A stretch of DNA of 35,544 nt from Dehalococcoidia bacterium. GTDB lineage: Bacteria > Chloroflexota > Dehalococcoidia > SZUA-161 > SpSt-899. Below the pieces are notes generated by a model that was not told the origin of the DNA, did no database searches, and was given only the letters and a program-made list of their open reading frames with translations. Made by a program: the position numbers and the translations under genes. Shown in pieces: positions 4,444 to 35,293 of this stretch (positions are counted from its first letter, which is position 1; each line of letters opens with the position of its first letter). The DNA is taken from assembly GCA_028711995.1 (NCBI GenBank), contig JAQTRE010000019.1, positions 1 through 35,544 on the forward strand, read 5' to 3'.

Positions 4444-7383
4444 ATGAACTTCACCAATCAGTTTCAACGACGTTTTGTTCTTGGAATCCTCATCCTGATC
4501 ATCGCCAGTATGATGCTGATCCCGGCGGGGACTATCGCAGCGCAGGATGAGCCGCTGTTTGCCGAAAATGACTGCGACTGTGAAGACTTGGGATGGAAGA
4601 CCAGCGCTGATCACTCCCGATACACAGACTCCGCCAGTTACGAATGGCTGCAAAAGGATTTTGGATTTTCTGCCTCGGAACTCCATTGCGAATATGCCAA
4701 GGGAAAAGGATATGAGCCCCGGCTGAGCCTTTCCATCATACATACCCAGACGCCGGAACAAACCGAGGAACTGGCCAACTACTACTTGGCGCAGGCATCG
4801 AAGACGGCGGATTTCTACGCCCAGAAAGAAGGCTATAACGTCATCGATCACGACGAATCCGAAGTAAGCCGATATTCCCACCTCTCGGTACATAACGATA
4901 CCAGAAGCGGTCTATACTACTACGGCTACCGAGCCATCCTCCACCCGGATAATTTCCTGGTGGTCGTTTCCGGATGGGGATACGAAGCCGATTTCAAAAG
5001 CAAAGAGGATTTCAAGATAGCTTTCGACCGGCTTGAACAGCATGCCATGGCGCTTCTCGGCGACAAGCAGGAAGAGAAAACCGAGGGCACCATCACCGGC
5101 TTCGATATCGGGATGAGCCGGATGCACCTCAGCCTGCTTCACCAAGATGAAATGATGGTCACCACCACCAATGCCTATGGGCGCTATGAATTCCCGGTGA
5201 AGCTGGAGAAGGACGAAGAATATGAACTGACCCTCCATTTTGAATACGTGCGTGAGGGGAAGACGGTTTTCCGGATTCGCTTTCAGGATAATGCCATTCC
5301 TGCCAAAATTGTGCTGCAAATAAAAGGGGACAATATCACCCAGGCATGGCTGGATCTCGGTGGCAATATGTATGGCGAATTGCCGGTTTCCCATATCTCC
5401 CTCTCGGAATTGAAATTGGACGAACTATTAAACTCGGAGGAATTCGCCAGCCTTGTCAGCATGTACATCCACTTTTCCGAAGCACTGGCGTTCTATACCG
5501 ATGGTCTGGGCGTCAAACTGAATTTCCAGCTGCCCATTGAAGTCCACGCTTTTACCGATCCCGAAAGCGAACCCACCGCTTACAACTACGCTCTGGGTAT
5601 GAGTTGGATCAACATCGACGAGGCGAAATCCTATCATTCATCGCCCTATCGGCCCATTCACCGGGAATACCATGAATTCAGTCACTACGTAATGCATGCT
5701 CTCTACGGCGCATTGCCGGTACCGAAAAACCCGCCCGTTCCGGAGATCAATCACGGCGGTTATGCCAATCCCAGCACCTCGGATTCCTTTGTGGAAGGCT
5801 TCGCCATTTTCATGTCCATCATGATGGCCAATAGCCTGGGCGATACCATTCCCCATCCGCCGGTGCGCCTGATGGAACTGATGACGTCCGGCAGAGCCGA
5901 GATGCTCAGAGATTTGGAACCCGATTACCTGGCCTGGGAGAAAAACGGCAAGGCCGAGGAGGTAGCCGTGGCCGCGGTGCTATGGGACCTTGTGGATTCA
6001 GCCCAAGACTACCGGGCTCCCGAAGATGAAGCATTTCGGCGCGAAACGATTGAGACGATGGTCGATTCGGCCTTGCAACAGAACGATGTCAACAACAACG
6101 GGCAGATAGAACGGGATGAATGGATTGCCCACATCTTCTTCATGAGAGCACAAGATTACACTGAGGACGGGGCACTCGATTGGAACGAATGGAATTCGGT
6201 CACACAGGACAGGGCGGACCAGCTGAAAAAGGGAGAACCATTGCCCGATGCCGATGAACTGAATACCTATGTCGATAATGAAATCCTCGGCGTTTATGAC
6301 CTGAACGGAGATCGCACTCTGCAATTCGCCGAGCTGAAAGAACTCCAAATGGCATTATCGGGCAGCGCAGCATCCGTTAACGACACTCTGCTGCAAGAGA
6401 TTTTCAGGAAACTCGATGCCGATGCCAGCAACGGGCTGGCGGGCAAAGAATTGCTGAAATTGGCCGTTACCGATCTTCAGCCCAACCGGATTTGGGAAAC
6501 CTACGACACAGACCGAGATGAAAAGATCAGCAAGGCCGAACTGATACAAATGGCCCCCATCGAATGGAAGTGGATGCAACATCAAGAGAGCAGCGTGACA
6601 GATTACCCGAATCTGCCCCAGGTCATCAGCTCAGACTATCTGTGGCAGGCAACAACCCCCCAGGATGACGACATAGTCAGTATCAGCTTTGAGAAAATCT
6701 GGGGAATTTTGAGCCAATACCATCAGGATTTCACCGCGGTTTACCAGTCTTTGATCAACACGTATCCGGATCAGAAGGACGGCATCGACCAGATATTCAA
6801 GGCCCACGGCTTTTTTGCCGATGTGAATCCTCAAAACCAGAAATGGGACTCCGGGGAAGCTATCGGCCGGGCGGCCGATGCCTCCACTGAGGACAGAAAG
6901 CAGCGCCGAAGCACCCAGGAACTACCGGGACAATTCATCAAGGTGAATAACGAAGTCCCGTATTACAACGTGGCGGTGTTGTTCCCTTTGCAGCCGCACC
7001 TGAGCTACCTTGCCCGAACCGCCAACACTGGCGGATGGGTCTATGTACAGATTCCACCAGAAGCCTATCTGGCACAAATCACAGTGGCGGCTGAGGGCGT
7101 CCAGAGCAATAATCCGCTGACCTTTACTACGCCGCAATTCAACGCCGCCTATGAGGAATCGTTAGCCCAAGGGTATTTTGTGACCCATGACTTTGGAATC
7201 GTAGGGGATATCCCAGCCTTGCCAGCATTCCCGTTCGACGATGCCGACGCAGCCGGCACCAGCAAGGACGAGTCGGCAGAAACAGAATCGGACGGCGGTT
7301 CAAACGCGGCCTTCATCGGCGTCTTGGCGATCATTGTGGTCGCATTGGTTATCGGCACATATTGGTTCATCCGCCGAAAATGA
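4444..7383 (+). CDS. Secreted, membrane-anchored HEFSH metallopeptidase with EF-hand-like loops
   Basis: Protein of 979 residues. It begins with a signal peptide (hydrophobic LGILILIIASMMLIPAG, then IAAQDE) and ends with one membrane helix at about 952-975 and a basic tail, so the bulk faces outward. Residues 410-414 read HEFSH, an HExxH zinc site. DSFVEGFA follows, with Glu451 as likely third ligand, the layout of gluzincin-type peptidases. A carboxypeptidase-regulatory-like beta segment lies at about 217-290. Five acidic EF-hand-like loops start at residues 548, 571, 619, 658 and 688 (for example DVNNNGQIERDE); the second and fourth are imperfect. Calcium probably stabilises or activates it. 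AAAGGAG precedes the ATG. The substrate is unknown. No close named family can be given beyond metallopeptidase. Confidence 0.8.
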   Translation: MNFTNQFQRRFVLGILILIIASMMLIPAGTIAAQDEPLFAENDCDCEDLGWKTSADHSRYTDSASYEWLQKDFGFSASELHCEYAKGKGYEPRLSLSIIHTQTPEQTEELANYYLAQASKTADFYAQKEGYNVIDHDESEVSRYSHLSVHNDTRSGLYYYGYRAILHPDNFLVVVSGWGYEADFKSKEDFKIAFDRLEQHAMALLGDKQEEKTEGTITGFDIGMSRMHLSLLHQDEMMVTTTNAYGRYEFPVKLEKDEEYELTLHFEYVREGKTVFRIRFQDNAIPAKIVLQIKGDNITQAWLDLGGNMYGELPVSHISLSELKLDELLNSEEFASLVSMYIHFSEALAFYTDGLGVKLNFQLPIEVHAFTDPESEPTAYNYALGMSWINIDEAKSYHSSPYRPIHREYHEFSHYVMHALYGALPVPKNPPVPEINHGGYANPSTSDSFVEGFAIFMSIMMANSLGDTIPHPPVRLMELMTSGRAEMLRDLEPDYLAWEKNGKAEEVAVAAVLWDLVDSAQDYRAPEDEAFRRETIETMVDSALQQNDVNNNGQIERDEWIAHIFFMRAQDYTEDGALDWNEWNSVTQDRADQLKKGEPLPDADELNTYVDNEILGVYDLNGDRTLQFAELKELQMALSGSAASVNDTLLQEIFRKLDADASNGLAGKELLKLAVTDLQPNRIWETYDTDRDEKISKAELIQMAPIEWKWMQHQESSVTDYPNLPQVISSDYLWQATTPQDDDIVSISFEKIWGILSQYHQDFTAVYQSLINTYPDQKDGIDQIFKAHGFFADVNPQNQKWDSGEAIGRAADASTEDRKQRRSTQELPGQFIKVNNEVPYYNVAVLFPLQPHLSYLARTANTGGWVYVQIPPEAYLAQITVAAEGVQSNNPLTFTTPQFNAAYEESLAQGYFVTHDFGIVGDIPALPAFPFDDADAAGTSKDESAETESDGGSNAAFIGVLAIIVVALVIGTYWFIRRK

Positions 7384-24154: not shown

Positions 24155-25933
24155 TCATCTGGGCTGACGATCCACATTTGCTGAGGGAGACGCCGTCACC
24201 CCAAAATAAAACTCGCATCGATCGAATTCACTCCAGGTGTTCTGATTGTCCACATTACCCTCAAGGCGCAAGACGAGTTTGTATGTACCCGGGGGGATAT
24301 CGAGAAGAGGTTTGAATATGGTGGTGTCGTATCCAAGTTGGTCAGTTTTGGCAAACACGGTTTCCACACCGAATGGTTCTGACCATACCAATGAGTTGTC
24401 GTTCGCTCTTCTGATTTCGGCAATCGTTCGGAGATAGCAGGTAGTATCGGGTATGGCATAGTTGGCGTAACGGGGTATCACCGTGAGAGTGTCTGCTTGA
24501 GTTGCATTAAACCCATAGTTATCGTATTCTCCGTCCGTGTCCTTCTGGTACCAGTCGGTTCCACCAGCAGATACTTCGTACCGGTAACCCGAATACGGAG
24601 GCATGCCATCCCATCTGAGGGTGAGTTGATGTTTGTTTCCTTCGGCTAAAGTCGTAAACGACATGTCACCAGGTTGAACTTCAATGGTCGCCTTATTGTG
24701 AGCCGTCTGAAGCTGCGGCACTTTGGCATACAGCAGTTCCACATCTCCAAACGGTGAAGACCATTTGGTATCAATAAGGCTCGCGAATTCCGACCATGTG
24801 AATTGATGTTGAACGGTGTCCCAGCCGGTCAACCAGCCCGATGGATCGTTTACATACACATGATCGGATGGCCCCACCCCATCAAACCCTGTAGCGACAA
24901 TGACATGTGATTGATCCCAAAATAAGACCCAGACCGGATGACCGGAAGCCAATGCCATCTGTATCTCCCGAACAAAGGATGAATTATCCCGGAAACAGTC
25001 CAGTTCCCAGGCACCCTCCATTCCGGCGCTATAATATGTCTCCACATAGTTCTCAACTTTGATCATACCGAGGAGCCCAAGGGAGTCAAAACCGTTGAGT
25101 GCCTCGTCTGGACCTTTGTCGAAATCTGCCGCTATCTGCCATGGTTTTCGATCGTAACCGTAGTACTCCAGAATCATCGACAGTGAAGTGGCCCAACACC
25201 AACTGGTATCGGCCTGATTATAATAAGGGACCTGGAGTTGACGCGGCGCGGGACTCTGTGGAAAAACAAACGGTTCGCTACGACAATTGTTTTCTTCATT
25301 TGACTCCAAGATGTCATTTTCAGCATCGGCGCACGCGGTAATATCGTGGCTGCCAGATGGAGGCACCACCAGCAAGGGTGATATCACCTTTATCGATCCT
25401 CCGGGATTCACGGCATCGTAGCTCGCAGCACTGACCTTTACCCCGTCAACGTAGAAGGTGACATGTTGGTCATTCCGGAAGCCGGCATCAGCCCGCTGAT
25501 TTCCAACGGGCTTGACTACCGCGGTAATGGAGTACATCTGCGTCTTTGAAGGAGCGACGGAATTTGTCCAGATATCGGTGATAATCAAATCCGGCGCGAT
25601 TGCGGTGGTGGCAATCGGATTGACCTTCTTATTGACACCCGATTCCGGTGTCAGCGTCTGGGCAACCACGCTGTATCGGACGCCTGCCGAGGGGGAAAGC
25701 GTCTTGCCGGCGAATTTACCATCGACGCATATGGAACAATCCATATCCGTGGTACCCGGCTTCACTACCCCATCGTCTACCCATACCTTAACCATTGTGC
25801 CTCTGGCTGCCGGGACTCCGTCAAAAGTGACCGAACCATAGAAACCGTATACGTTCGGCTGAGTAATGACCGCAGAGGGCGACAAGATTGCCACCACTGC
25901 TAACACTGCCAATGATAGAAACCGCTTGTCCAT
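24155..25933 (-). CDS. Secreted C39-like cysteine peptidase with CARDB domain
   Basis: Exported protein of 592 residues. A signal peptide (FLSLAVLAVVAILSPSAV) is followed by a small beta domain and a CARDB adhesion-type domain at about 116-225 (TDIWTNSVAPSKTQMYSITAV, ending ENDILESNEENNC). Residues about 230-390 form a papain-fold peptidase of the C39_2 type: Gln240 as oxyanion residue, Cys246 in DTSWCWATSLSMILEYYG, His343 in QSHVIVATGF and Asn362 in VNDPSG. The remainder (about 410-580) is beta-rich, Ig or fibronectin-like. There is no C-terminal anchor, so it is probably released. ATG with AGGGGG upstream. It is divergent from the giant C25 gene and shares its control region. Confidence 0.85.
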   Translation of the reverse strand: MDKRFLSLAVLAVVAILSPSAVITQPNVYGFYGSVTFDGVPAARGTMVKVWVDDGVVKPGTTDMDCSICVDGKFAGKTLSPSAGVRYSVVAQTLTPESGVNKKVNPIATTAIAPDLIITDIWTNSVAPSKTQMYSITAVVKPVGNQRADAGFRNDQHVTFYVDGVKVSAASYDAVNPGGSIKVISPLLVVPPSGSHDITACADAENDILESNEENNCRSEPFVFPQSPAPRQLQVPYYNQADTSWCWATSLSMILEYYGYDRKPWQIAADFDKGPDEALNGFDSLGLLGMIKVENYVETYYSAGMEGAWELDCFRDNSSFVREIQMALASGHPVWVLFWDQSHVIVATGFDGVGPSDHVYVNDPSGWLTGWDTVQHQFTWSEFASLIDTKWSSPFGDVELLYAKVPQLQTAHNKATIEVQPGDMSFTTLAEGNKHQLTLRWDGMPPYSGYRYEVSAGGTDWYQKDTDGEYDNYGFNATQADTLTVIPRYANYAIPDTTCYLRTIAEIRRANDNSLVWSEPFGVETVFAKTDQLGYDTTIFKPLLDIPPGTYKLVLRLEGNVDNQNTWSEFDRCEFYFGVTASPSANVDRQPR

Positions 25934-26196: not shown

Positions 26197-26267
26197 AGGA
26201 ACCTCCGATTAGTAGCGCAGCACTCTCGAAGATTCCATGCAGTGACAGCCGAATAGCAGTGAACAAA

Positions 26268-26336
26268 GGGACCTCTGATCAAGTGGTACAGGATTCCTCC
26301 TGCCGGGAGCCTGGGGCCAGGGGTTCAGAGATTCCC
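26268..26336. mobile_element. 69-bp MITE-like element with IS5-type ends
   Basis: The left end GGGACCTCTGATCAAGTGGT matches 18 of 20 positions of the left end of the IS at 9729. The right end, reversed, reads GGGAATCTCTGAACCCCTGG. CAAA (26264-26267) and CAAG (26337-26340) flank it, a near-perfect duplication fitting the IS5 target CWAR. It has no coding capacity and could be mobilised in trans by the intact transposase. It sits directly against the ribosome binding site of the following gene. Confidence 0.72.
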
Positions 26337-26351
26337 CAAGAGGGGGAACTG

Positions 26352-29300
26352 ATGGCCTCGAAAAGAATCTCGAATGGAGTTCTGGGATTAGTTGTTCTTA
26401 TGCTGATCCTTTCCCCCTTGGTTCTTGTGGACACTGCTGATGTATCTGCTCAGGATACCTATACCCTTTCAGGCCGAGCATATGCTGGAGAAGTGGGGAA
26501 CGAAAATGGGCCGATTTCCGGTGTGACGATTTCGCTATATGGAGCCAACAACCCGTATCCCGATCCCGGAACCTTTATCATCAGCACCACTACTGATTCC
26601 AGCGGATGGTACGGTCTTCCCGTTCGGCCCGGGTATGAGTTCTACTCCATCCGGGCAAGAGACCCTTCCGGTTACGTTTCGAAGGGCGCAACATCAGTCA
26701 GCGGGACGGTTCGAACCGCCAACTGGATAGAATACGGCATTCCGCTGAATCGGAAAACACTGACCGGTAACCTATTCTGGAATACACAGGACTCTCGGTC
26801 CACTCCAACACCCACTCCAACACCCACTCCGACTCCTACCGAGATACCACCAGACGAAGGCTGGTGTTGTCTCAATGGGGACGTGTTTCCGGCCTCTAAA
26901 CCCCTGTGCACCGGCGAGGGCGGTCAGTTCTTTTCTGCCGAAGATCAGGCATGGATCGCATGCGAGGGCAAAGAACCGCAAGAGGGCTGGTGCTGCCTGA
27001 ATGAAGATATCTTTTCTGTTCCGGAATCCATTTGCGCTGAAGAAGGCGGAACGTTCTTTCCATCCGAAGAAGCGGCTGCCGAATTCTGTTTTGAAACACA
27101 GCCGGAGCAGGGCTGGTGTTGCTCCAACGGAGAGATTTTCCCTGCGCCCGAAAGTGACTGCATCGAAGACAGAGGCACATATTTTGTCAGCGAACCGGAA
27201 GCTTTGGAATACTGTCAATCACTGTCCCCGCCACAGGAAATCGGCGCTGACCTGACAATCACAGACATCTGGAATGAAGAAACCCGGATTTGCTATCAGC
27301 TTTACAATCGAGGCGCCCAGCCGATTGGAGCCGGTCATGTCTCGGCGCTGTTCATCGATGGCGAACTCGTAGCCAGGAACTTCATCGAAGTGGAGATGGG
27401 CCCCGATGAACGATTCGTCCGCTGTTTCGATTTCGACTGGCGATGCACACCTGACGATCATACGATCGCCGTACAAGCGGATTTCGAGAACACGATTGCC
27501 GAATATGATGAGGAGAACAATCGACGTGAGGAGGTCTGGCAATGTGACAATGTGGCACCACTGATTACGGATGGCCCATCAGTATCCGATATCACTCAGG
27601 ATTCGGTGCTCATCACCTGGAAAACCAGCGAAGACGCCGATGGTACGGTACGATACGGCAATATCGCGGGGCGTTACGAATTGGAGAAAAACAATCCTGC
27701 TTTCTCGACCGACCATTCCAGCAGAATCACCGGGCTCAAACCCGCCACAGTCTACCATTTCACTGTCCGATCCACCGATATCGGCGGTAATGAAGTTGCC
27801 AGCCCGGACAGCACTTTCAAAACGCTCGCACCTCCCGATAATCTTTCGCCTACCCTGATCCTTCACCAACCCGGCCAAATGCGAGGGACTGTTCTCATTT
27901 CAGGCGATGCGCAGGATGATCAGGGCGTGGACCGTGTGGAATTCTACATCGATGACAAACTCATCTTCACAGATTATTCCGCACCGTTTGAGTTTTCCAT
28001 GGATTCAACCCAGTACGATAACGGCATGCACGATATCAAAGGGAAAGTGTTCGATGTCACCCATAAATCGGGTGAAGATGACCTCAAAGCAGATGTGGGG
28101 AACCTTCAGGACAGAGATGTTCCCACCGTCATTATCACCTATCCGGCCACCGACCAGACGGTTTCAGGCAATGTGGATATTCAGGTCACTGCCGAGGATG
28201 ACACCGCTTTGCTTTACGGCCGGTTCTACATCGACGGTGACTGGGCCGGAAACTGGTACCCGAGCCAGGAGGGAGCCAAAAAGGAGAGCTTCAAATTCCC
28301 ATGGTACACAACGCAGTACAAAAACGGCAAATACCGAATCGCCTTCGAAATCTACGATACCGATTTCAATAAAGGCGTTGGTTACAAGGATGTGATCGTT
28401 GATAACGCGCCAAAACCCAAACCGGCAGAGCTGCAGATTATCAAACGCGATATTCAACGGACCGGCAATTATTTCACCGTAACGCTGACGGCCAAGAATT
28501 TCGGCGGAACTGAGGCCCGGAAAATACGAATCCTCGATTCCCACCAGCTTTTCCAGCCGATTTCGGGTACCAAAACAGAAGCCATTTACGAAGCCGAGTT
28601 CAAACCGGAACTGACCACGTGGGAGATGGAGATCACCAGCCAGGTGAATATCGGTCCGGGGAAAGAACAAAAATACACCTACATGCTTGTGCCCGTTCTG
28701 GTTCCGCCGGTTTCACTCCAGCCCATCCAGGGGGGATCTTCGATGTCCGGGCTGCCTCCAAAGAATCTGTTACCCATTATCGGAGGAACAAAATACGTCG
28801 ATTCAACCGACCTCTGGTACGAGCCGCCCGACGCGAGCGAAATCTACAACAATCGATTCAAACTGTCTTCGATTGAAGCTGTCAATTACCAGTTGGCGCT
28901 TAAAACCTCCGATTACCTGATCGTTACCAGCCCGCGCAATCTCCTCAAGTTCAATCCCAAAAAAGATGTCAACCTGCTTTTGTCCTCAATGGCCGAGCTG
29001 GGGCAACTCAAGAACGGTGTTCTGGGATACCTCGATCCGGCAGCCCAGTTCAGCCGGGATTTGGAGCAGTATGATGCGCTGGCGGCAGGGGATGTCACCG
29101 GAGGAAGCTCCGCGGAAGTGATCGTCGCCGATAAGAGCGCCGATAGAGTTTATGTGTACACGGTTGAAGATAAGACGCTCAGCTTTACTTCCGCATCCGG
29201 TTTTGCTTCCTTCCAGACAAACTGGTGGAACGAGACCGAAATTCAAACCACATTTGACGATGGTGACCGGATCGCTGTAGGCAAGGTTACGGGATTGCCC

Positions 29301-32216
29301 AAAGAAGCCATAGTCGTGGCAGACCAAGTTGCGGACCAGATCACTACATACGATGGCGACGGCATTGTTCAGAGTTACTTTTTCCATACCTTCGATGCGT
29401 TTGACGGACTGGCCGTCGGCGATGTCAACGGGGACGGCGGCGAGGAGATCGTGATTGCCAACGCCAAGACGGACACAGTCTACACTTTCAAGTATAACGG
29501 TACCAAGATAGGCGAATTCAAGATGCCGTTCGATTCCGGCGATGGACTGGCCGTGGGCGATGTTGTGGGCGACAGCAAGGCGGAAATCATTCTGGCCGAT
29601 GACAGCTCGGACAAGGTTTTCCTGTATGCGATGAATGGGAATCTGCTCTCCTGGTTCTATTATAAGTTCGATGGCGGTGATGGCCTGGCTACCGGCAACA
29701 TGATCATCACCTGGCCGCAGGATAAAAGAGAGATCGTGATTGGAGATCCCAGAGGCAATGATATTACCATCCTGCGCGGTGACGGCTGGCCGCTTGACTG
29801 GTTCGAACGCGATTTCGAGGCGTACGATGGTCTGGCCACCGGCGATTTCGGCGGCGGGATTGACGATGTGATCACGGGCGATCAAAGTCAGGATTTCATC
29901 GATATCCACAGCCTTGACCAGACTACAGGTGATAAATATGTCCTCCAGAAACTCATCAAGGAATATGGCGAGTGGAGCAGCCAGCTCAAGAGCAACTGGA
30001 CCTCCAATGGCTATCTGTTGATTGTGGGCGAGACGGAGATTGTTCCGGCCTGGGCCGGGAAAAGTCACGGCACGGTAAATACAACCAAGGGCAAGAGATC
30101 TCTTCAGGCAGACGTGACCGATTACCCGTATGCCAGCACCACCGGCGAAGAGGTAAAACCCGAACTGGCTATCGGCCGGATCATCGGTAACAGCGCTCAA
30201 GCCCTGCAAAAGCCGATCGAGGCAAGCATCAACGTGACGAAAAAGACCGCCGGATACGGCTACGAGCACAAAGATTACTTTGCCGTAAGCGGTTTCCCCG
30301 CAGGAGTCGGCGGCGGCGCGGACAGTATCGATTTCAAAACAGAACTGTTCAAAGTCGCGCTCATTATGAAGGGCAACAAAATCGATGGCGTGGTCATGTT
30401 CACCCCTGATTATGCCCAAAAGGACGCTTCCGGCAAGATCGATCAGTTTGCCACCGCCAATGCCATCGTCAGCAAGTTCTTTGGTAACTCGGCCAATCGG
30501 GATATCCTCTTTCTGACCGGTCACGGCAATTCCGGCGGATGGGACGGTATCGGCGCTGATGATGTTCTGCTTCAAACCGATCCGTTCGGGAATACAAACC
30601 CCGCAATTTATGCCGCCTCCTGTACCACAGGGGCATATCAGGCCGGGCTTTCGTTTGCCGAATCGATGCTGATGGAAGGCGCAGGCGTTTACTACGGCGC
30701 AACCAAATGGGGGCTGGGGAGCCATAGCTGGATTCATCAAAAATTCTTCGGTCTCTGGGAAGCCGGAACATCCATCGGCGAAGTGGCCCGAGATGTAAAA
30801 CGAAGCATCGCCGATTACGACTATGGCAGCTATTCGTACCCGGATATCAAGGCGAGATACTACGCTTCGATCTATCACGTTTTCGGCGACCCGAAATACG
30901 GACTGGCAGGAGGAGGAATTTTGGCAGCATCCGGCGCTGCTTCGAGCAGTTCCGGCTCGCAAGGTTCGGGGCCCGAGCCATTGTCCTCGATAGATATTTC
31001 CGTTCCTTCTTACGAAACGGGTCAGTCCGAAGGCGAAACTTACGCGTCAATTCCCGGCGGCGATCAGTTGATGGTGGAAAACCAGCCGATAGTCCCGTTT
31101 TACCGGGTAACCTATGATTACCCCAAGGGATATCAGATTCAAAACGTCACTCTCACCGGGCAAGGGCAGGCCGCCACCGAATCCAATTTGAGCCTTCCGG
31201 CAACGATCGAGGGGATTGGCGATGAGGGAATGGGATTTACCCCATCGGAACAAACGGATGCCGCCGAATGGTGGCCGGCCAAAACCTATGACTGGTCTGT
31301 TTATGAAGACACGGACAAAACCACACTGGCAATCACCCTCTATCCCTTCATTTATAATTCGCTCACCAATGAGGCCAAATTCACTTCGGAGTTCAACTTC
31401 GATGTCGATTATATTCTTTCTTCGGTACAAATCGCCAGCGTCCAGCCAGACAGACACATTTATGAGTCCGGCGAGCCGGTTGTGCTGAACATTGGACTCC
31501 AAAACACGGGGGAAGACGGGCGGGATGTTGTGGTGAGCACGTTAATTATCGATGACGACTCCAGCGAGATTGTGGCTGGATTGCCGCTTCGTTCGCTGGG
31601 GGATATGAAAGGAACTTCCGCTTTTTCCGAAACCTGGGATAGCACCGGCATGAAAGCTGGTTACTACGAGGTAATTATTGAGGTATCGGACGATGCCGGA
31701 AATCTGCTGGATCGTGGTTTTGGGGGATTCCAGCTTGGACGGTCGATGGGCACAATCACTGAATTTACCGTGGTGCCCGCGCTGACCGATGGCGGCGAAT
31801 CGCTCGATATTTCACTTAAATTTGACAATGTCGGTTCGACGGATATCACCGGCGCAGCCATGATTCGATTTCGTGACGCATCCGGCTCGGTCATTCATTT
31901 GATCACGCATGAACTTGAATCGATGACTCCCGGTGATTCTCTGTCGATAGCAGAAACATGGGATGCAGCGGATATTGCAGATGGCACGTATGAAGTCACT
32001 GCGCATGTTCTATATGATGGCAAGAGCACACCTGTGAAATCGACCGCTGTCAACATTGGTAAAGTCGCCGCTCTCGATAATCAGTTCCCATCGGAATCTG
32101 AAGGTGAGTCAGGCGGATCGAACACAGGTATTATCATAGGGGTCACTGCAGGCATGATTGCGCTATTTGTAATCAGTTTTGGACTCTGGCAGTGGCGAAG
32201 AAAGGATGCCGGATAG
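26352..32216 (+). CDS. Giant membrane-anchored gingipain-like (C25) surface protein
   Basis: Protein of 1954 residues. Order: signal peptide; beta domain; TP-rich linker; three 42-residue Cys-rich WCC repeats (about 168-295); CARDB (297-397); fibronectin III (401-491); two Ig-like domains (500-686); CARDB-like (690-785); six FG-GAP-like repeats (about 907-1187; DGLAVGDVNGDGGEEIVIAN); a C25 caspase-fold peptidase (about 1213-1520) with His1391 in FLTGHGNSGGW and Cys1424 in AASCTTGAY; two more CARDB-like domains (1692-1904); and a membrane helix (1925-1948) with tail RRKDAG. Both catalytic residues are present, so it is probably an active cell-surface cysteine peptidase, perhaps binding a partner through the propeller. 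ATG 26352 after GAGGGGG is chosen; the in-frame GTG 26259 would translate through the mini-element. It ends at a hairpin. Confidence 0.88.
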   Translation: MASKRISNGVLGLVVLMLILSPLVLVDTADVSAQDTYTLSGRAYAGEVGNENGPISGVTISLYGANNPYPDPGTFIISTTTDSSGWYGLPVRPGYEFYSIRARDPSGYVSKGATSVSGTVRTANWIEYGIPLNRKTLTGNLFWNTQDSRSTPTPTPTPTPTPTEIPPDEGWCCLNGDVFPASKPLCTGEGGQFFSAEDQAWIACEGKEPQEGWCCLNEDIFSVPESICAEEGGTFFPSEEAAAEFCFETQPEQGWCCSNGEIFPAPESDCIEDRGTYFVSEPEALEYCQSLSPPQEIGADLTITDIWNEETRICYQLYNRGAQPIGAGHVSALFIDGELVARNFIEVEMGPDERFVRCFDFDWRCTPDDHTIAVQADFENTIAEYDEENNRREEVWQCDNVAPLITDGPSVSDITQDSVLITWKTSEDADGTVRYGNIAGRYELEKNNPAFSTDHSSRITGLKPATVYHFTVRSTDIGGNEVASPDSTFKTLAPPDNLSPTLILHQPGQMRGTVLISGDAQDDQGVDRVEFYIDDKLIFTDYSAPFEFSMDSTQYDNGMHDIKGKVFDVTHKSGEDDLKADVGNLQDRDVPTVIITYPATDQTVSGNVDIQVTAEDDTALLYGRFYIDGDWAGNWYPSQEGAKKESFKFPWYTTQYKNGKYRIAFEIYDTDFNKGVGYKDVIVDNAPKPKPAELQIIKRDIQRTGNYFTVTLTAKNFGGTEARKIRILDSHQLFQPISGTKTEAIYEAEFKPELTTWEMEITSQVNIGPGKEQKYTYMLVPVLVPPVSLQPIQGGSSMSGLPPKNLLPIIGGTKYVDSTDLWYEPPDASEIYNNRFKLSSIEAVNYQLALKTSDYLIVTSPRNLLKFNPKKDVNLLLSSMAELGQLKNGVLGYLDPAAQFSRDLEQYDALAAGDVTGGSSAEVIVADKSADRVYVYTVEDKTLSFTSASGFASFQTNWWNETEIQTTFDDGDRIAVGKVTGLPKEAIVVADQVADQITTYDGDGIVQSYFFHTFDAFDGLAVGDVNGDGGEEIVIANAKTDTVYTFKYNGTKIGEFKMPFDSGDGLAVGDVVGDSKAEIILADDSSDKVFLYAMNGNLLSWFYYKFDGGDGLATGNMIITWPQDKREIVIGDPRGNDITILRGDGWPLDWFERDFEAYDGLATGDFGGGIDDVITGDQSQDFIDIHSLDQTTGDKYVLQKLIKEYGEWSSQLKSNWTSNGYLLIVGETEIVPAWAGKSHGTVNTTKGKRSLQADVTDYPYASTTGEEVKPELAIGRIIGNSAQALQKPIEASINVTKKTAGYGYEHKDYFAVSGFPAGVGGGADSIDFKTELFKVALIMKGNKIDGVVMFTPDYAQKDASGKIDQFATANAIVSKFFGNSANRDILFLTGHGNSGGWDGIGADDVLLQTDPFGNTNPAIYAASCTTGAYQAGLSFAESMLMEGAGVYYGATKWGLGSHSWIHQKFFGLWEAGTSIGEVARDVKRSIADYDYGSYSYPDIKARYYASIYHVFGDPKYGLAGGGILAASGAASSSSGSQGSGPEPLSSIDISVPSYETGQSEGETYASIPGGDQLMVENQPIVPFYRVTYDYPKGYQIQNVTLTGQGQAATESNLSLPATIEGIGDEGMGFTPSEQTDAAEWWPAKTYDWSVYEDTDKTTLAITLYPFIYNSLTNEAKFTSEFNFDVDYILSSVQIASVQPDRHIYESGEPVVLNIGLQNTGEDGRDVVVSTLIIDDDSSEIVAGLPLRSLGDMKGTSAFSETWDSTGMKAGYYEVIIEVSDDAGNLLDRGFGGFQLGRSMGTITEFTVVPALTDGGESLDISLKFDNVGSTDITGAAMIRFRDASGSVIHLITHELESMTPGDSLSIAETWDAADIADGTYEVTAHVLYDGKSTPVKSTAVNIGKVAALDNQFPSESEGESGGSNTGIIIGVTAGMIALFVISFGLWQWRRKDAG

Positions 32217-32266: not shown

Positions 32267-32298
32267 AGAAAGGGAGCCCCGAAGGGGGCTCCCTTTCT
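32267..32298 (-). terminator. Intrinsic terminator of the octad-repeat protein gene
   Basis: AGAAAGGGAGCCCC (32267-32280) and GGGGCTCCCTTTCT (32285-32298) form a perfect 14-bp stem with a 4-nt loop. On the minus strand the stem runs into TTTTATG, giving a U-rich tail. It lies 24 nt after the minus-strand stop codon. Confidence 0.8.
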
Positions 32299-32321: not shown

Positions 32322-34706
32322 CTATCCAGCCGGAGGAGGAGGTGGTGGAGGTGGTGGAGGTGGTGGTGCGCCCATGTCACCGCCCGGAGGTGGTGGTGCG
32401 CCCATGTCGCCGCCCGGAGGTGGTGGTGCGCCCATATCGCCGCCCGGAGGTGGCATGTAACCTTCGCCGCCCGGAGGTGGCATATAACCTTCGCCGCCCG
32501 GAGGTGGCATGTAACCCTCACCACCCGGAGGTGGCATGTAACCCTCACCACCCGGAGGTGGCATGTAACCCTCACCACCCGGAGGTGGCATGTAACCCTC
32601 GCCGCCCGGAGGTGGCATATAACCCTCGCCGCCCGGAGGTGGCATGTAACCCTCGCCGCCCGGAGGTGGCATGTAACCCTCGCCACCCGGAGGTGGCATG
32701 TAGCCTTCGCCGCCCGGAGGTGGCATGTAACCATTAGCGGGGCCGGGTGTCACAGGAGCTTTCCAGCCTTCAACTGTAGGCGGACGCCATTGGTCAAGTG
32801 TGGGAGGTCTCCATTCCCCAGCCGGAGGAGGCCCCATATTGCCGTCAGGACCGGGCATCATTCCATCGGGCCCAGGTATAAATCCGCCGCCAGGGTTAGG
32901 TATCATACCATTGGCACCAGGCATGATTCCCCAGCCGCCATCGGGGAGTTGTCCGAATTGACCGACTCCCGGAGCTACGTAATTTTCCGGCAGCGCCGTC
33001 GGCCGCATGTAGTTGAAGGCTTGGGGATTGACGTTGCCCATCTTGTCAGGAGCGATACGCGCGATTTGATCTTGCCCCATGTACTCAAAGGCTCCGGGCG
33101 GGATGTAAGCCAGTTGCGCATCGCCCATTTGGCCCATAGACTCAGGCGAGATGTATTTGAAATTCTCTCCCTGCATGTTCTGGAAGGCATCCGGTCGAAT
33201 ATTACCGTAGTTCTCCGGTGGGATATACCCCATAGCCTCGCCCTTTATATAGCCAAAAGACTCAGGGTTAATGAATCCCATAGCCTCACCCTTCATCTGA
33301 CCGAAGGCTTCCGGAGGGATGAAGTCGAAGTTCTCCGGTGGGATAAATCCCATTCCCTCGGGAGGCATATAGCCGAAGGCATCGGCTTTCATATGCTGGA
33401 ATCCCTCAGGTTGGATATACTGGAAGGAATCAGCCCTCATATTAGCCATGTTCTCCGGTGGCATAAAATCGAAGGCTGCACCATTGATCTTGCCGAAGGT
33501 TTCGGGGTTGATGTGCTGGAAGTTGTCGGCATTCATGGTTCCGAATCTTTCGGGAGATACGAACTCAAAGTTATTCGAAGACATATACTCGAAGTTCTCA
33601 GGCGGAATAAAGTCAAACCCCTGTCCCTGAGATATCTTGCCGAAGTTCTCCGGTGATATGTGCGAAAAGGATTCGCCATTGATCTTGCCGAAGTCTTCCG
33701 GAGGAATGAAGCCAAAGGCTTCGCTCGACATTTCCCCGAAGGTCGCGCCCGGTACAAACTCATAGGCTTCACCCGGCACAAATCCCCAGGCTCCCGGTTT
33801 GGCGGTTCCGCCGACATCAGACGACATATCCTGCCAGGCATCGGCGGGCATGGTAGCACCCATGGAGTTTCGCATGTCGGCCTGTGCTTGAGCTTTAAAT
33901 TCCGGCGGTACGAAATCGGATACCTTACCGAGAGTATCGATGATACCGGCAGTGGTTTTACCCTTTCCCTTTAAGGGAGTGGCTTTGAGGTTGTTGCCTA
34001 TCTCACCGACAACCTGATCAAATGGCTTGAAACTGGTCATAAAGTCGCCTTCACCGGTTACGGGGAAGCCTGTACCCTCACCAGAAAGACTATCACCGGC
34101 GGGGCCCTTACGCATAACACCGGCCACGATCTGGCCGGGCTGCATGCCATCCATTCCTTTAAAGATCTTCCCTTCTCCGGTTATCTTGTCCGGGATGGTA
34201 ATCTGATTGCCCTCGCCGACTACACCAATTTGGTGAGTAAATGAAGTCTCTTTTGGCCGCATCTTGGCACCCGAGGCCATGAACTGGCCGTCCTGTCTAT
34301 TGCCAACCACCACGATGCGCTCTCCGGATTGCACTGCGCCAAAGTCGTATTCATTACCCACATACACATCCTGCGGTCCGTTGGCAGTACTGATGGTGAT
34401 GATACCTGCTGCAGGATTGGCACTTAGAACATCACCGAAAAGGGCATCTGTGGGCCCCGGGAAGGGCTGGGGATTGGATTCCCCAACAGGGTTGCCAGCC
34501 TCCGGTCCGAGGTCTGCCGCTGGTTCCGGGATTGGAACAGGCAGTGATCCTTCCTCACCGGCAGGATTATCTGCCGGATTTCCTGTATCTACGATGGGAG
34601 GATTCACTGGGGGTGGATCCTCCTGCGCCATGACGACGGATGGCAGGAGTAACATGGCTGAAAGAATTGAGAAAAATAGTACCAGTTTAAAGAAACTCCT
34701 TCTCAT
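32322..34706 (-). CDS. Secreted octapeptide-repeat protein with Pro/Gly tandem-repeat C-terminus
   Basis: Exported protein of 794 residues, not recognised as a whole. Signal peptide 1-28 (ends VVMAQ). A Pro-rich linker follows, then a DUF5666-like beta domain at about 88-150 (GIITISTANG, then ERIVVVGNRQDGQFMASGAK). From about 309 to 570 there are some 33 octads of the pattern [I/M/V]-x-[P/G/A]-[E/D]-x-[F/M]-x-x, for example IPPENFDF, IPPEAFGQ, MKGEAMGF, often alternating between P-type and G/A-type units. The tail has WRPPT units, eleven copies of YMPPPGGEG, three of GGDMGAPPPP and a run of prolines. There is no membrane anchor. It looks structural or adhesive; a solenoid-like fold is possible. 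AAAGGAGG precedes the ATG. It follows the lipoprotein gene by 83 nt, probably in one operon. Confidence 0.8.
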   Translation of the reverse strand: MRRSFFKLVLFFSILSAMLLLPSVVMAQEDPPPVNPPIVDTGNPADNPAGEEGSLPVPIPEPAADLGPEAGNPVGESNPQPFPGPTDALFGDVLSANPAAGIITISTANGPQDVYVGNEYDFGAVQSGERIVVVGNRQDGQFMASGAKMRPKETSFTHQIGVVGEGNQITIPDKITGEGKIFKGMDGMQPGQIVAGVMRKGPAGDSLSGEGTGFPVTGEGDFMTSFKPFDQVVGEIGNNLKATPLKGKGKTTAGIIDTLGKVSDFVPPEFKAQAQADMRNSMGATMPADAWQDMSSDVGGTAKPGAWGFVPGEAYEFVPGATFGEMSSEAFGFIPPEDFGKINGESFSHISPENFGKISQGQGFDFIPPENFEYMSSNNFEFVSPERFGTMNADNFQHINPETFGKINGAAFDFMPPENMANMRADSFQYIQPEGFQHMKADAFGYMPPEGMGFIPPENFDFIPPEAFGQMKGEAMGFINPESFGYIKGEAMGYIPPENYGNIRPDAFQNMQGENFKYISPESMGQMGDAQLAYIPPGAFEYMGQDQIARIAPDKMGNVNPQAFNYMRPTALPENYVAPGVGQFGQLPDGGWGIMPGANGMIPNPGGGFIPGPDGMMPGPDGNMGPPPAGEWRPPTLDQWRPPTVEGWKAPVTPGPANGYMPPPGGEGYMPPPGGEGYMPPPGGEGYMPPPGGEGYMPPPGGEGYMPPPGGEGYMPPPGGEGYMPPPGGEGYMPPPGGEGYMPPPGGEGYMPPPGGDMGAPPPPGGDMGAPPPPGGDMGAPPPPPPPPPPPPAG
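32359..32745. repeat. Coding tandem array: three 30-bp and eleven 27-bp units
   Basis: Three 30-bp units (32359-32448, each encoding GGDMGAPPPP) are followed by eleven 27-bp units (32449-32745, each encoding YMPPPGGEG). Units differ mainly by synonymous third-position changes (catgtaa or catataa, ttcgcc or ctcacc), so the array has expanded recently and is likely to vary in copy number. The last unit diverges at its edge. All units keep the reading frame of the minus-strand gene. Confidence 0.9.
32997..33782 (-). repeat. Degenerate octapeptide (24-bp) repeat domain
   Basis: About 33 octads lie within the coding sequence. DNA conservation is low while the amino-acid pattern persists, meaning an old array held by selection. 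Two units (FVPGATFGE and ISQGQGFDF) carry a one-residue insertion. A 16-residue super-period is visible where P-P-E units alternate with G-E or A-D units. Confidence 0.8.
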
Positions 34707-34789
34707 TTCAATCCTCCTTTGGGATTTATTTCATCTGCCACTGTTGAGATTTGTGCCAGACGGCGGGTTTTAAGCTCAGTGAGTATTAT

Positions 34790-35293
34790 TTATGAGGAAA
34801 GATAAACTACGGTCAGCACTTCCCCCATCTCTTTTCCTTCGAGATCGCTGGCTACGATTTCGATGAAATTGGCACCGGCATCCAGTGTGGTGGTGGCGAT
34901 AAATTTCCCATCCGAGTTAACCGATGTCAGTATGCCATTGACACTGACAATGGCGGTGGGAATGGTGCTGCCGGTAACCTGTACTTCCGAGGTTCTTAAC
35001 ACGCTCTCATTTGCGGGAGATATGACTTCCAGATAGAGTTCTGGTATCTCCGGTTCCGGCTCAGGCGCCGACACTGCCAGCACTTCCGGCGATTCCCCCG
35101 CAACGATATCAATCTCCGCTTCTGATTGAGTTACGGCAGCAGACGATGGTGCTGACGTCAACTGTTCAGCAGGTTTCTCCGAGGCCAAGGTGGGATTGGT
35201 ATCGGACCCTCCGCAGGCCCCCATTCCCGCAAGTGCCAATGTACTTAACAGCACAGCGACAATCAGTGATATGGACTTACCTGACTTCAACAT
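34790..35293 (-). CDS. Lipoprotein with a single Ig-like domain
   Basis: Protein of 167 residues. A lipoprotein signal (SISLIVAVLLSTLALAGMGAC) has its lipobox Cys at residue 27, followed by a low-complexity Ser/Glu/Pro spacer. The C-terminal 75 residues form a bacterial Ig-like beta domain (EVISPANESVLRTSEVQVTG, then IVSVNGILTSVNSDGKF and LDAGANFIEIVASD), similar to adhesin or glucodextranase-B-type modules. It is probably anchored on the outer face of the membrane. TAAGGAGG precedes the ATG. The octad-repeat gene follows after 83 nt without a terminator, so the two are likely co-transcribed and may act together at the surface. Confidence 0.85.
   Translation of the reverse strand: MLKSGKSISLIVAVLLSTLALAGMGACGGSDTNPTLASEKPAEQLTSAPSSAAVTQSEAEIDIVAGESPEVLAVSAPEPEPEIPELYLEVISPANESVLRTSEVQVTGSTIPTAIVSVNGILTSVNSDGKFIATTTLDAGANFIEIVASDLEGKEMGEVLTVVYLSS

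Follow-up and report, generated by a model that had tools for sequence, protein, structure and literature searches.

The array analysed here comes closest to HeliScrew4 (PDB 9zem), an octad protein placed by Pfam in the ALTTAQ family (PF20080). Also to be considered are the mesothelin-type proteins (mesothelin, stereocilin and otoancorin), described as extracellular short-helix solenoids of animals with repeats of 27-37 residues (PMC2628672, PMC10035497), mesothelin itself being a right-handed solenoid (superhelix) of 24 short helices (PMC10035497). Finally, the bacterial ice-nucleation proteins are secreted, have an 8/16-residue period and are described as beta-solenoids with 16-residue coils and Thr/Tyr arrays (PMC9418140). 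In the open-licence PubMed Central text, no papers were found on HeliScrew or ALTTAQ repeats, nor on the octad motif reported below.

In the window, i.e. the whole stretch of DNA analysed (35,544 nucleotides of a contig from a Dehalococcoidia bacterium), the octad gene and its features are distributed as shown in Table 1. The gene is preceded by a good ribosome-binding site and occurs once in its own genome (one match). In its product, the signal peptide is followed by a Pro/Ala linker and then by a region without family or PDB match, the PDB sequence search with the N-terminal part having returned no matches. As for the longer helices predicted ahead of the array, their AlphaFold2 confidence stays under 50 for the most part as far as residue 274. 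The preliminary description had placed the repeats at 32997-33782 on the minus strand (residues 309-570); the unit register moves these limits to those of Table 1, and the 9-residue unit corresponds to residues 351-359. Four terminator-like sites were found in the region vs. 3.4 in shuffles, and the one 3' of the octad gene has the longest stem among those listed.

Table 1. Features of the octad gene and its immediate surroundings, in window positions.
Feature	Position	Strand	Basis
Octad protein gene, 794 aa	32322..34706	-	Open reading frame
Ribosome-binding site AAAGGAGG before ATG of octad gene	34713..34720	-	Placed by eye
Signal peptide, residues 1-27, cleavage after VMA	34626..34706	-	By eye from translation, without predictor
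Residues 229-301, four longer predicted helices, possible solenoid cap	33804..34022	-	AlphaFold2, low confidence
Octad domain, residues 303-567, 33 units (32 octads and one 9-residue unit)	33006..33800	-	Lag identity, unit register
Gly/Pro/Met-rich linker, residues 568-658	32733..33005	-	Translation
GYMPPPGGE array, 10 exact units and one shortened	32439..32732	-	Tandem Repeats Finder, codon comparison
DMGAPPPPGG units and polyproline end	32325..32438	-	Tandem Repeats Finder, translation
Terminator-like hairpin, 14 pairs, 3' of octad gene	32267..32298	-	Hairpin scan
Upstream gene, probable lipoprotein with Glucodextran_B domain	34790..35293	-	Pfam E 1.3e-12; lipobox by eye

Within the array, residue identity was 0.254 at lag 8 (z 11.1) and 0.331 at lag 16 (z 15.7) vs. 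about 0.076 in shuffles, none of 500 shuffles reaching the native value at either lag, which bears out the octapeptide repeat of about 33 units first proposed from the sequence: all 33 units stand in register. Concerning the individual columns, position 2 is P in 18 units and G in 8, position 3 is E in 19 and D in 6, position 5 is F in 22, M in 6, Y in 2 and W, L or I in 1 each, position 6 is G in 16, and position 8 is I in 17, M in 12 and V in 4. A hydrophobic residue occupies positions 5 and 8 in every unit (33/33 each) and position 7 in 18/33, and is found at positions 1, 2, 3, 4 and 6 in none (0/33). By these column counts, the literal PExF octad of the preliminary description is the mode and not the rule. 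Over 265 residues, the array contains 31 Gly, 28 Pro, 20 Asn, 3 Thr and a single Leu, and its net charge is -22 (K, R, D, E count). A two-unit (16-residue) alternation, previously only hinted at, is real and modest: the excess of lag-16 over lag-8 identity, calculated over residues 368-567, which hold 25 of the 33 units, was reached by 159 of 20,000 unit-order shuffles. The alternation of P at position 2 alone (10/13 vs. 5/12 units) showed no significance (Fisher p 0.11).

At the DNA level, codons were identical in a proportion of 0.46 where residues agree between the 16-residue units of the octad array, vs. an expectation of 0.42 from the codon usage of the neighbours or 0.50 from its own, M and W being omitted from the comparison. 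Synonymous codons are therefore as different as unrelated ones, so that the octad array is old and has been kept at the protein level while its DNA drifted, as had been supposed. An origin of the octads as an artefact of a repetitive DNA tract was considered, and codon saturation argues against it. The GYMPPPGGE nonapeptide array of the same gene, with 0.75 identical codons, is recent; Tandem Repeats Finder (score 30) detected the Gly/Pro arrays and not the octads. The nonapeptide array (32439-32732, minus strand) is also a place where copy number is likely to differ from strain to strain.

The fold was predicted with AlphaFold2 without alignment for two constructs (residues 286-600 and 80-572). 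In the best models, at least three helical residues, mainly at positions 2-5, were found in 31/33 and 33/33 units, any strand in 1 and 0 units, and the block pLDDT lay between 71 and 95 for most of the array. Each octad is thus predicted to hold a single short helix. The hydrophobic spacing of 3 and 5 (positions 5 and 8) suits such a short helix, and counting against it are the Gly at position 6 in 16/33 units and the Chou-Fasman values, which are higher for strand than for helix at positions 5, 7 and 8. Of the regular solenoid or fibre originally suggested, the solenoid is the best-supported structure on the basis of the two constructs, a fibre being no more than a suggestion. Only one model out of five was confident in each run, the remaining ones lying at 28-41 and 28-39, and this, together with the richness in Gly, Pro and Asn, would fit an unlikely reading in which the array, like the tail behind it, is of low complexity and for the most part disordered or collapsing, made regular by old duplication and by selection for sticky Phe/Tyr/Met with acidic spacers. 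Such a stretch is, however, hard to reconcile with a strict binary pattern (33/33 at two positions, 0/33 at five) held while the codons drifted to saturation, or with the best model of the first construct, in which the adjoining low-complexity Gly/Pro/Met tail is poorly predicted and the array well.

Searched with Foldseek against PDB folds, both helical models gave mesothelin as the top match (E 1.8e-6 and 3.3e-4), with low TM-scores (a TMq of at most 0.33 among the mesothelin rows listed for the first model) and about 11% identity. By VIA-align, the array model reached a Z of 5.9 at best vs. mesothelin, which is within common arrangements, with an rmsd of 6.7 over 200 residues. The array would share with mesothelin a short-helix solenoid and an extracellular location but differs in that mesothelin has no octads (PMC2628672, PMC10035497), and the Mesothelin family (PF06060) gave no Pfam match in the octad protein. 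The Foldseek matches listed did not include 9zem for either model, and those listed for the first model included no beta-solenoid. A BFVD search with the second model returned loose matches only, the first being DUF4116 proteins of a giant virus.

At the sequence level, HeliScrew4 is the best PDB match of the array (E 1.3e-6), and the two share the eight-residue period, the hydrophobic positions 5 and 8, an acidic position 3 and a common Pro at position 2, whereas the residue choice is Leu/Ile/Ala/Gln/Thr in ALTTAQ vs. Phe/Met/Ile/Gly/Pro in the array. The PExF signature, initially thought distinct from bacterial repeats of the I-x-x-L-T-x-x-Q type, therefore differs from them in residue choice and not in register. 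True descent as a diverged member of the ALTTAQ family would, besides period and register, find support in three PF20080 proteins encoded on plasmids (tblastn, E 1e-6, 3e-6 and 2e-3), in an hhalign probability of 81 between a four-row array profile and HeliScrew4, and in the Q at position 4 of the late units GDAQLAYI and GQDQIARI, as in ALTTAQ. We nevertheless consider such descent distinctly improbable. Pfam analysis of residues 304-572 returned no family at E up to 10, PF20080 included, no PF20080 match over cut-off was found in the organism's own genome, and the strongest plasmid match (E 1e-7) was rejected as an ALTTAQ protein, since it lies antisense to a VWA gene. A permutation control was also conducted, in which the eight positions were reordered within every unit, period and composition being kept (5040 orders tried). 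Scored with an HMM built from 14 natural ALTTAQ rows, the native order received 3.9 bits, a value equalled or exceeded by 544 of the 2443 permuted orders reported; the last seven units did no better, their native score being reached by 574 of 3725 reported orders. With BLOSUM62 alignment, the native sum over four targets was reached by 151 of 5040 orders, and that for HeliScrew4 alone by 50 of 5040, which is a weak hint at most. Since permuted orders match the native score, the ALTTAQ likeness is mostly one of period and composition, and membership is unproven by sequence; more generally, E-values between short-period repeats call for such a control before kinship is claimed. Whatever the kinship, the array corresponds in layout and predicted structure to a short-helix octad solenoid. 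In the phylum, a search of 251 genomes detected PF20080 in four at E 0.001, two of them over the cut-off; the five loci concerned, read in one frame each, gave no convincing octad array and were left out of the comparison. In Shinella zoogloeoides, a very large ALTTAQ repeat protein (locus L026, 1055-5714, plus strand) is encoded directly behind a sigma/anti-sigma factor pair.

A beta-solenoid whose 16-residue coil would comprise two octads, as described for ice-nucleation proteins (PMC9418140), agrees with the 16-residue alternation and the strand propensities but is very improbable, the array having only 3 Thr among 265 residues, no Pfam family being matched, and the best models being helical and almost strandless although AlphaFold2 is reported to over-call beta-solenoids for perfect repeats (PMC11795689). 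As that bias is towards the beta-solenoid, the predicted helices are not an error of this kind, which does not amount to proof of them.

Relatives were looked for in overlapping samples of genomes, the own genome being counted in each. Matches were found in 1 of 60 related genomes, 1 of 18 genomes of the order and, with profile A1 (four 48-residue blocks), 1 of 294 genomes of the class, in each case its own only. In the phylum, 2 of 400 genomes matched, the own one and G323 (E 0.008); the frame of the latter (FALSFSIPFALSISIP...) resembles a non-coding repeat and was set aside after inspection by eye. The N-terminal part alone matched 2 of 197 genomes, i.e. its own and G049 (E 0.0013), a weak match in a frame resembling the wrong strand of ordinary genes, likewise dropped by eye. 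A related-locus search of the genome contig collection yielded 14 stretches, none of which was confirmed. In the same collection, a three-octad DNA pattern, which demands Phe at three fixed places and which looser relatives would escape, hit nine loci, each translated in the pattern frame. Three of them (L010, L011 and L015) lack a usable frame at the pattern, and in five (L009, L012, L013, L014 and L017) the pattern frames are unlike genes, all frames having been read for L012, L013 and L014; L012 and L013 carry a longer ORF on the opposite strand. Only L016 is a real gene, encoding a Cthe_2159 carbohydrate-binding lipoprotein of Eubacterium sp. Its octads NPEDFGNM, NPEDFKNM and NPEDFENM resemble the array but are only three, in a Gly/Met/Pro/Asn-rich tail beside the carbohydrate-binding domain. 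They are probably independent of the array, and their occurrence in a low-complexity tail may favour the disordered reading discussed above. In L014, from Flavobacteriaceae, a perfect 24-base tandem repeat (437-721) encodes SPELFGII on one strand, with no clear gene in any frame.

Outside cellular genomes, the viral contig collection gave no matches, a tblastn search of 50,697 phage records gave a single match (E 2e-3), which covers 20% of the query, and plasmids contained nothing comparable except ALTTAQ proteins, at the sensitivity used. The protein is best read as an orphan: no Pfam family matches it, its NCBIfam and PHROG matches are few, weak and short, and the genome searches turned up no relative. 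The short-helix octad solenoid layout has precedents, in outline, in other proteins; it is for the motif that no close relative was found.

On balance, we lean towards reading the whole as a secreted envelope protein with a 33-octad alpha-solenoid, a Phe/Met/Ile core and a role as rigid spacer or scaffold, the fold being that of the predicted models. Its stacking, capping, location and role are what we infer. The protein would be exported by the Sec route, a proposal made because of the signal peptide recognised by eye. The 33 octads would form one continuous alpha-solenoid, in which a short helix, with Pro/Gly and Glu/Asp at its start, would span residues 2 to 5, 6 or 7 of each octad and the turn would fall on residues 8 and 1. 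Phe/Met at residue 5 and Ile/Met/Val at residue 8 would face a shared, nearly leucine-free core. With two octads per layer, the 16-residue alternation would be accounted for. The longer helices N-terminal to the array may cap one end, the flexible Gly/Pro/Met tail lying at the other, and the rod, outside the cell, would most likely act in the envelope as a spacer, rigid and acidic, or as a scaffold for binding. Metal or oxidant binding through the 18 array Met was considered and dropped; these 18 sit at the core positions 5 and 8.

More tentatively, the array may be an independently evolved, leucine-poor alpha-solenoid with a Phe/Met/Ile core and a unit close to the minimum, one helix per eight residues, exported to the envelope and seen so far in one species; if true, octad solenoids would have arisen in nature a second time, beside ALTTAQ. 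Should the fold be right, octad alpha-solenoids could be built from Phe/Met/Ile/Gly/Pro instead of Leu/Ala/Gln, which would bear on the minimum length of a helical solenoid repeat and provide protein design with a natural template of 33 units, in which the 9-residue unit is a built-in defect. The array would also point to an unstudied envelope protein of this organism.

As for the neighbouring genes, the gene for the probable Glucodextran_B lipoprotein lies on the same strand as the octad gene, 83 bases apart, and is a possible operon partner; two further stretches matching it are found side by side on another contig (C8) of the same genome. On its other side, the octad gene faces, across the terminator-like hairpin, a gene (26259-32216, plus strand) whose product, a C25 (gingipain-type) peptidase of 1985 aa, combines a C-terminal membrane segment with CARDB, Big_7, fn3-like and FG-GAP-like parts. 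Near its start, this peptidase carries three Cys-rich 42-residue repeats (GWCCLNGDVFPA...C...GG.FF) without Pfam name. Elsewhere in the window, a 979-aa secreted protein (4444-7383, plus strand) has EF-hand-like calcium sites, a C-terminal membrane segment and a stretch, HEYHEFSHY, reminiscent by eye of a metallopeptidase site. Near the C25 peptidase gene, a C39-like cysteine peptidase, also secreted and carrying a CARDB domain, is encoded on the minus strand (24155-25933).
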